Below are positions 14,505-14,887 of a DNA stretch of 32,228 nt, piece after piece. The DNA comes from Candidatus Methylomirabilota bacterium. Lineage in GTDB: Bacteria > Methylomirabilota > Methylomirabilia > Rokubacteriales > DASRDR01. How positions within the stretch are numbered: position 1 is the first letter of the stretch; each line of letters starts with the position of its first letter. The translations under genes and the position numbers were made by a program. The stretch lies in the NCBI GenBank assembly GCA_036005065.1, contig DASYQW010000221.1, positions 1 to 32,228 on the forward strand. Reading direction: 5' to 3'. The notes beneath the pieces are model-generated. The model made no database searches. It saw only the letters and a list, made by a program, of their open reading frames with translations, and was not told the DNA's origin.

Positions 14505-14533
14505 TTGAGCCGGCCAGGCTTCTCTCGTAGAAT
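14505..14533 (+). promoter_or_regulatory. Promoter of the candidate selenoprotein gene
   Basis: -35 TTGAGC (14505-14510), a 17-base spacer, -10 TAGAAT (14528-14533). It would give a leader of about 48 bases containing the GGAGG ribosome-binding site (14578-14582). Confidence 0.6.
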
Positions 14534-14587
14534 GGGGCCGGCCATTCCCCTATCCCTGTACACCACACACACATCACGGAGGTCCTC

Positions 14588-14887
14588 ATGGCTCAGATGA
14601 AGGAGTTCGCCGGCGTCTACTATCGGGAGGGCGCCCTCGATCCCAAAACGATGCAGCTCGTGGCCCTCGCGGCGATGGCCGCGGCCGGCTGTACCTCCTG
14701 AGTGCCGGGACGCTTCGCGGCTGCGAAGCAAGCCGGCGCCACCGACGACGAGCTCAGCGAGACCCTCTACTACGCGATGCGGGGGGCCGCCCGCGCGACG
14801 TGGAGCACCATCAAGCACATCGACGGGATCGAGGATCTGAACAAGGACTGGAAGACCAAGTTCGAGCGTGAGAACGGCAAAGCCTAG
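14588..14887 (+). CDS. Carboxymuconolactone decarboxylase/AhpD-family candidate selenoprotein (TGA = Sec38)
   Basis: The ATG at 14588 has GGAGG five bases upstream and a good promoter. The frame reads MAQMKEFAGVYYREGALDPK, then TMQLVALAAMAAAGCTS, an in-frame TGA (14699-14701), then VPGRFAAAKQAGATDDELSE, TLYYAMRGAARATWSTIKHI and on to a TAG at 14887: 99 residues if TGA is read. In the CMD/AhpD family this helix carries a redox C-x-x-C followed by AGATDDEL-like text; the TGA falls precisely on the second Cys, giving C35-T-S-U38. A hairpin with bacterial SECIS geometry follows at 14704-14737. CMD/AhpD proteins act as thiol peroxidase partners or decarboxylases. Standard gene calling would keep only 14702-14887 as a truncated 61-residue ORF. 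The alternative is a Cys-to-stop mutation. The usual His four residues after the second Cys is Arg here. Confidence 0.8.
14704..14737 (+). promoter_or_regulatory. Bacterial SECIS-like hairpin
   Basis: Directly after the in-frame TGA, GCTTCGC (14712-14718) pairs perfectly with GCGAAGC (14723-14729) around the loop GGCT. Below a 3x3 internal loop, GCCGG (14704-14708) pairs with CCGGC (14733-14737). The apical loop begins with GG, 17 bases after the TGA. This agrees with the known bacterial SECIS pattern (G at the start of a small apical loop, roughly 16-37 bases from UGA) and resembles the spacing in E. coli fdhF. It lies inside the coding region, as bacterial SECIS elements do. Confidence 0.7.

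Follow-up and report, generated by a model that had tools for sequence, protein, structure and literature searches.

Selenocysteine (Sec)-containing AhpD/CMD proteins with a CxxU motif have been reported since 2005-2008 (PMC1088965, PMC1794560, PMC2398784), among them the GSU3128 family, which Zhang et al. 2006 described as a 'distant AhpD homolog' (seleno)protein (PMC1794560). A recent review gives CxxU AhpD and CMD families among its selenoprotein families and refers to a Methylomirabilota MAG with 63 predicted selenoproteins (PMC13188914). The family described here may already be contained in the supplement of the primary survey behind this number. Sec-containing AhpD-like proteins thus have the precedent that was claimed for them in a sequence-only reading of the DNA stretch analysed here, which pointed to a candidate of this type. 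We refer to this stretch of 32,228 nucleotides, which belongs to a Rokubacteria-group bacterium of soil/groundwater, as the window. Its relevant features are as follows:

14528..14533, + strand: TAGAAT, a -10-like hexamer of a likely own promoter; a TATAAT/TAGAAT-like hexamer lies upstream in most orthologues
14578..14582, + strand: Shine-Dalgarno sequence GGAGG; an AGGAGG-type site precedes the orthologue starts
14588..14887, + strand: predicted selenoprotein gene, CMD/AhpD fold, 99 aa with U38, TAG stop; 43 distinct orthologues
14690..14701, + strand: redox motif C35-T-S-U38 (TGT ACC TCC TGA); C35 and U38 invariant in the alignment
14699..14701, + strand: predicted Sec codon TGA; TGA in 43/43 distinct orthologous sequences
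14702..14739, + strand: putative SECIS with lower stem, 14702-14708 paired with 14733-14739; pairing across orthologues
14712..14729, + strand: upper hairpin of the putative SECIS, GCUUCGC-GGCU-GCGAAGC; fits the published bSECIS model (PMC13188914)

As had been proposed, the ATG at 14588 is preceded by a GGAGG site and a -10-like hexamer. It opens a frame that begins MAQMKEFAGVYYREGALDPKTMQLVALAAMAAAGCTSUVPGRFAAAKQAGATDDELSETL, has a single in-frame TGA at the U of this sequence and ends with a TAG at 14887. Gene calling of the window with table 11 yields solely a 61-aa ORF (14702-14887) starting at the GTG directly after the TGA, which is the truncation that had been foreseen; in standard annotation, this conserved gene thus loses its active site and shrinks to a fragment. 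When the TGA is read through, the product scores 53 bits with Pfam CMD (PF02627; cut-off 23, E 3.6e-14), in agreement with the claim that both sides of the TGA encode a CMD/AhpD-like protein, and, with Cys in place of Sec, it exceeds the curated cut-off of TIGR00778, the AhpD core domain (29.4 vs 27.8 bits). By E-value, the best single NCBIfam match is the GSU3128 family (NF041047, E 1.2e-13), although the score of 50.9 bits stays below the cut-off of 110, which is reached in 0/95 genomes of the phylum. The window protein is outside this curated Sec-AhpD family and forms a separate, lineage-specific subfamily of the phylum. An AlphaFold2 model is helical and of the CMD-type fold (pLDDT 92); the closest PDB chains are RclX (7y4r), TTHA0727 (2cwq) and 3bey, with Foldseek E-values of only about 3e-3.

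A single genome is insufficient to argue against a decayed gene or a sequencing or assembly error, in which case the TGA would terminate translation or stand for a TGC/TGT that was read wrongly. Orthologues were collected by scanning 84,980 species genomes and in a separate search of 95 genomes of the phylum. The scan returned 30 orthologues, nearly all from Rokubacteria/Methylomirabilota MAGs and one from a MAG labelled Nitrospinota, and the TGA is present at the motif in 30/30, including an orthologue whose N-terminus is one residue shorter (L033). One sequence is out of frame in its upstream extension only (L037), and two end at contig edges (L035, L038). In the 95 phylum genomes, matches of at least 57% identity that span the Sec codon contain exactly one TGA each, while the stop-free partial matches, one in G007 and fragments in G067 and G078, do not extend to this codon. 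Taken together, we obtained 43 distinct orthologous sequences that cover the Sec codon and are 64-91% identical; all of them carry TGA and none carries Cys. The TGA had been placed at the second Cys of the family's CxxC motif, and this position is kept throughout. Among 14 representatives with 66-91% identity to the window protein, the invariant residues include K5, E6, F7, A8, Q23, L24, C35, U38, R42 and W72, so that the Arg42 noted earlier in place of the family His is a fixed feature.

The suggested search for CTSC homologues, with U replaced by C, returned orthologues, of which those that cover the Sec codon all carry TGA; no CxxC (CTSC) orthologue was found in the phylum. Among homologues free of a stop, the closest are CxxC CMD proteins of the ordinary kind with at most about 46% identity, and a plasmid collection held CMD proteins of 33-35% identity only. 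The subfamily is thus apparently Sec-only in this phylum. Instead of unrelated stops or decayed frames, the relatives have open frames in which this very codon is TGA. Tens of genomes that were assembled independently share the TGA, which excludes an erroneous base call at 14699. G007 does have only a 5'-truncated copy of the gene (L094), in which the promoter-like region is fused straight to about codon 41; it reflects either a deletion or a misassembly, and the genome in question has 10% contamination. With the same TGA and an intact frame in the 43 distinct orthologues, and purifying selection on both sides of the codon, we consider decay or error extremely improbable.

The genes selA, selB, selC and selD, whose presence the earlier reading had named as a check, all occur in the genome to which the window belongs (5.6 Mb, 419 contigs, 98% complete). 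selA (602 bits), selB (364 bits) and selC (76 bits; a tRNA-SeC by ARAGORN) are clustered on one contig (C299), and selD (389 bits) is located on another (C222). The selD gene is itself predicted to encode a selenoprotein, with an in-frame TGA in the motif HGAGUACK (L048). Since 83/95 genomes of the phylum have selA, which makes it near-universal, its co-occurrence with the gene within the phylum is uninformative. An open frame under the assumption that TGA encodes a residue leaves the identity of this residue unspecified, and UGA might be read as another amino acid such as Trp, by a code change or plain readthrough. However, several genes of the window end with TGA as a normal stop, the four sel genes are present and the position is that of the family's redox Cys; we regard such a decoding as extremely unlikely.

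We then considered the RNA downstream of the UGA. The bSECIS model specifies a stem of 4-16 bp and a spacing of 16-37 nt, with a loop of 3-9 nt that has G in its first two positions (PMC13188914); the energy threshold is an MFE of at most -7.5. The upper hairpin of the window gene has 7 bp and a 4-nt GGCU loop, its apical loop begins 17 nt past the UGA and its energy is -10.5 kcal/mol, all of which lies within these limits. Including the lower stem, the 50 nt after the UGA fold with -27.6 kcal/mol (z -2.9). A scan of the window against Rfam at gathering cut-offs gave no matches. An equally good hairpin follows 65/712 TGAs of the GC-rich window (9%), and we rejected the hairpin alone as proof of Sec. 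By itself it is weak evidence; its weight comes from conservation, and the constraint on the hairpin is therefore the key test.

The stem codons 42, 43, 44, 46 and 47 (CGC TTC GCG. GCG AAG) are identical in 43/43 sequences, while the loop codon Ala45 varies among GCT, GCC and GCA, and codons for Arg, Phe, Ala and Lys do show synonymous variation in other parts of these genes. Among 26 invariant residues with multiple codons, the positions with zero variation are exactly the five stem codons (P about 1.5e-5 for the choice of 5 from 26, which ignores relatedness, although relatedness acts on all positions alike). For comparison, the Gln48 codon is CAA in 38/40 and the Gln23 codon is CAG in 37/41 sequences. 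Pair counts in the upper stem are uninformative on covariation because the stem hardly varies; in the lower stem, 86% of cells are paired, with several pair types, as opposed to 22-45% when the stem is slid. These data also bear on a two-part gene, in which translation would stop at the TGA and reinitiate at the adjoining GTG (14702) to give two short peptides. A GTG, which is a possible start, does directly follow the TGA in most orthologues, but the corresponding codon is GCA, GCC or GCG, none of them a start, in L087-L090, and GTA in L034. Moreover, the frozen codons coincide with a hairpin 11-28 nt downstream that would be needless for reinitiation, and the split would break one CMD domain apart midway through its redox motif. 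Reinitiation is thus very improbable. Based on the frame, the TGA conservation, the RNA-level constraint and the sel genes, the gene at 14588-14887 almost certainly encodes a selenoprotein.

According to this model, SelB with Sec-tRNA(Sec) would read the UGA at 14699-14701, helped by the downstream hairpin, and the product would be an all-helical protein of 99 residues that has the CMD/AhpD fold and a C-T-S-U centre. Its exposed Sec38 is the probable nucleophile and might attack a peroxide or disulfide; Cys35 would then resolve and release Sec38, and a cellular thiol donor would re-reduce the centre. Fold and motif suggest that the protein is probably a thiol/selenol peroxidase or disulfide reductase. 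In the alignment to AhpD, Cys130 and Cys133 correspond to Cys35 and Sec38, while Glu118 and His137 of the proton relay correspond to Gln23 and Arg42, so that the AhpD set of four residues is not conserved in the window protein; the replacement of the Glu by the invariant Gln23 is a point that the earlier reading did not contain. A selenol is ionised already at neutral pH. Because of this, the relay, which activates Cys in AhpD, would not be needed, and the invariant Gln23 and Arg42 in its place fit a selenolate nucleophile. In a first sample, consisting of matches to the window protein, Glu and His occur in 23/23 CxxC proteins and His in 0/40 Sec forms, an association that comes down to no more than 2-3 changes on a tree of poor resolution. 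The idea of a general rule linking Sec to loss of the relay His was refuted on a Pfam-based sample, in which several Sec-containing CMD proteins keep the His (L199, L201, L203, L206, L210-L212).

An alternative is that the selenoprotein uses its selenol and thiol for metal or metalloid handling, by analogy with AhpD-arsenite methyltransferase-like fusions. NCBIfam matches to the AhpD domain of ArsM_AhpD_UU (E 1.5e-13) and to that of MduS (3.1e-12), both below cut-off, come close to the match with the GSU3128 family, and the lack of the AhpD proton-relay residues also speaks for such a role. However, a partial survey revealed neither arsenic nor metal genes adjoining the gene in the window or recurring beside orthologues, and we consider this function unlikely, if worth keeping in mind. 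The gene lies by itself, with a divergent gene for an M23 peptidase on one side and a co-directional gene for an alpha/beta hydrolase on the other. A search for a conserved operon partner among the window neighbours in relatives found none and gave no hint of a substrate; a few relatives have an ABC-transporter gene downstream in common. As neighbours are not common to relatives while the TATAAT-like box and AGGAGG are kept before the start in most orthologues, a monocistronic gene is suggested.

Other CMD-type proteins with in-frame TGAs were also observed. Five of the 11 CMD-domain matches in the window's genome have one TGA at the second Cys (CTSU, CWEU, CDYU, CEYU and CPFU; contigs C160, C221, C50 with two, and C269), and on this sequence pattern, Sec is predicted to be used on a large scale in the CMD superfamily of this genome. 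A second CMD-fold family of the phylum, of about 85 aa with the motif GNTHU (L096, L111-L121, L123-L128), has Asn at the first redox Cys, TGA at every Sec position and a strongly conserved, CGACCUGGCAGGUGCCAGG-like downstream RNA. This family was not found in the window's genome, and the review makes no mention of NxxU (PMC13188914). Furthermore, a CMD-type protein with two in-frame TGAs has the motif U-L-P-U (L122), and two others (L213, L216) have APYU and VAYU, that is, a predicted Sec without a partner Cys. A broader picture seems possible, and we offer it tentatively: Rokubacteria would widely carry a Sec-only CMD subfamily that has Sec in place of both the catalytic Cys and the whole Glu/His relay, and that therefore lacks a functional Cys form, within an unusually large conversion of CMD/AhpD proteins to Sec in the phylum. 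The phylum comprises uncultured soil/groundwater bacteria, for which a very large selenoproteome has recently been reported (PMC13188914). A family with a strong SECIS is now available for selenoprotein models, and the combination of no Cys form and no proton-relay residues makes it possible to test why Sec is retained in a lineage.

While CxxU AhpD/CMD selenoproteins as such are already known, the lineage-specific subfamily in this phylum is new. Like the GSU3128 family, the window protein is a small CMD/AhpD-fold protein with CxxU and Sec at the second Cys, but it remains at 50.9 bits where that family demands 110. It has the Pfam CMD domain, CxxU and a SECIS directly behind the UGA in common with CMD and AhpD-like selenoproteins from surveys of the Sargasso Sea and GOS data (PMC1088965, PMC2398784). 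According to their description, the latter come from marine reads and have reported Cys homologues, whereas the window family is so far confined to Methylomirabilota-type MAGs, with no Cys orthologue seen. The AhpD domains of ArsM_AhpD_UU (NF041537) and MduS (NF045649) are likewise of the AhpD type with CxxU; they are C-terminal parts of multi-Sec methyltransferase fusions, in contrast to the stand-alone window protein of 99 aa. Finally, M. tuberculosis AhpD and PA0269 (PMC3141380) share with it the CMD fold core and a redox pair on the same helix with the second residue aligned, but where AhpD combines Cys-x-x-Cys with the Glu118/His137 proton relay, the window protein has Sec, Gln23 and Arg42.
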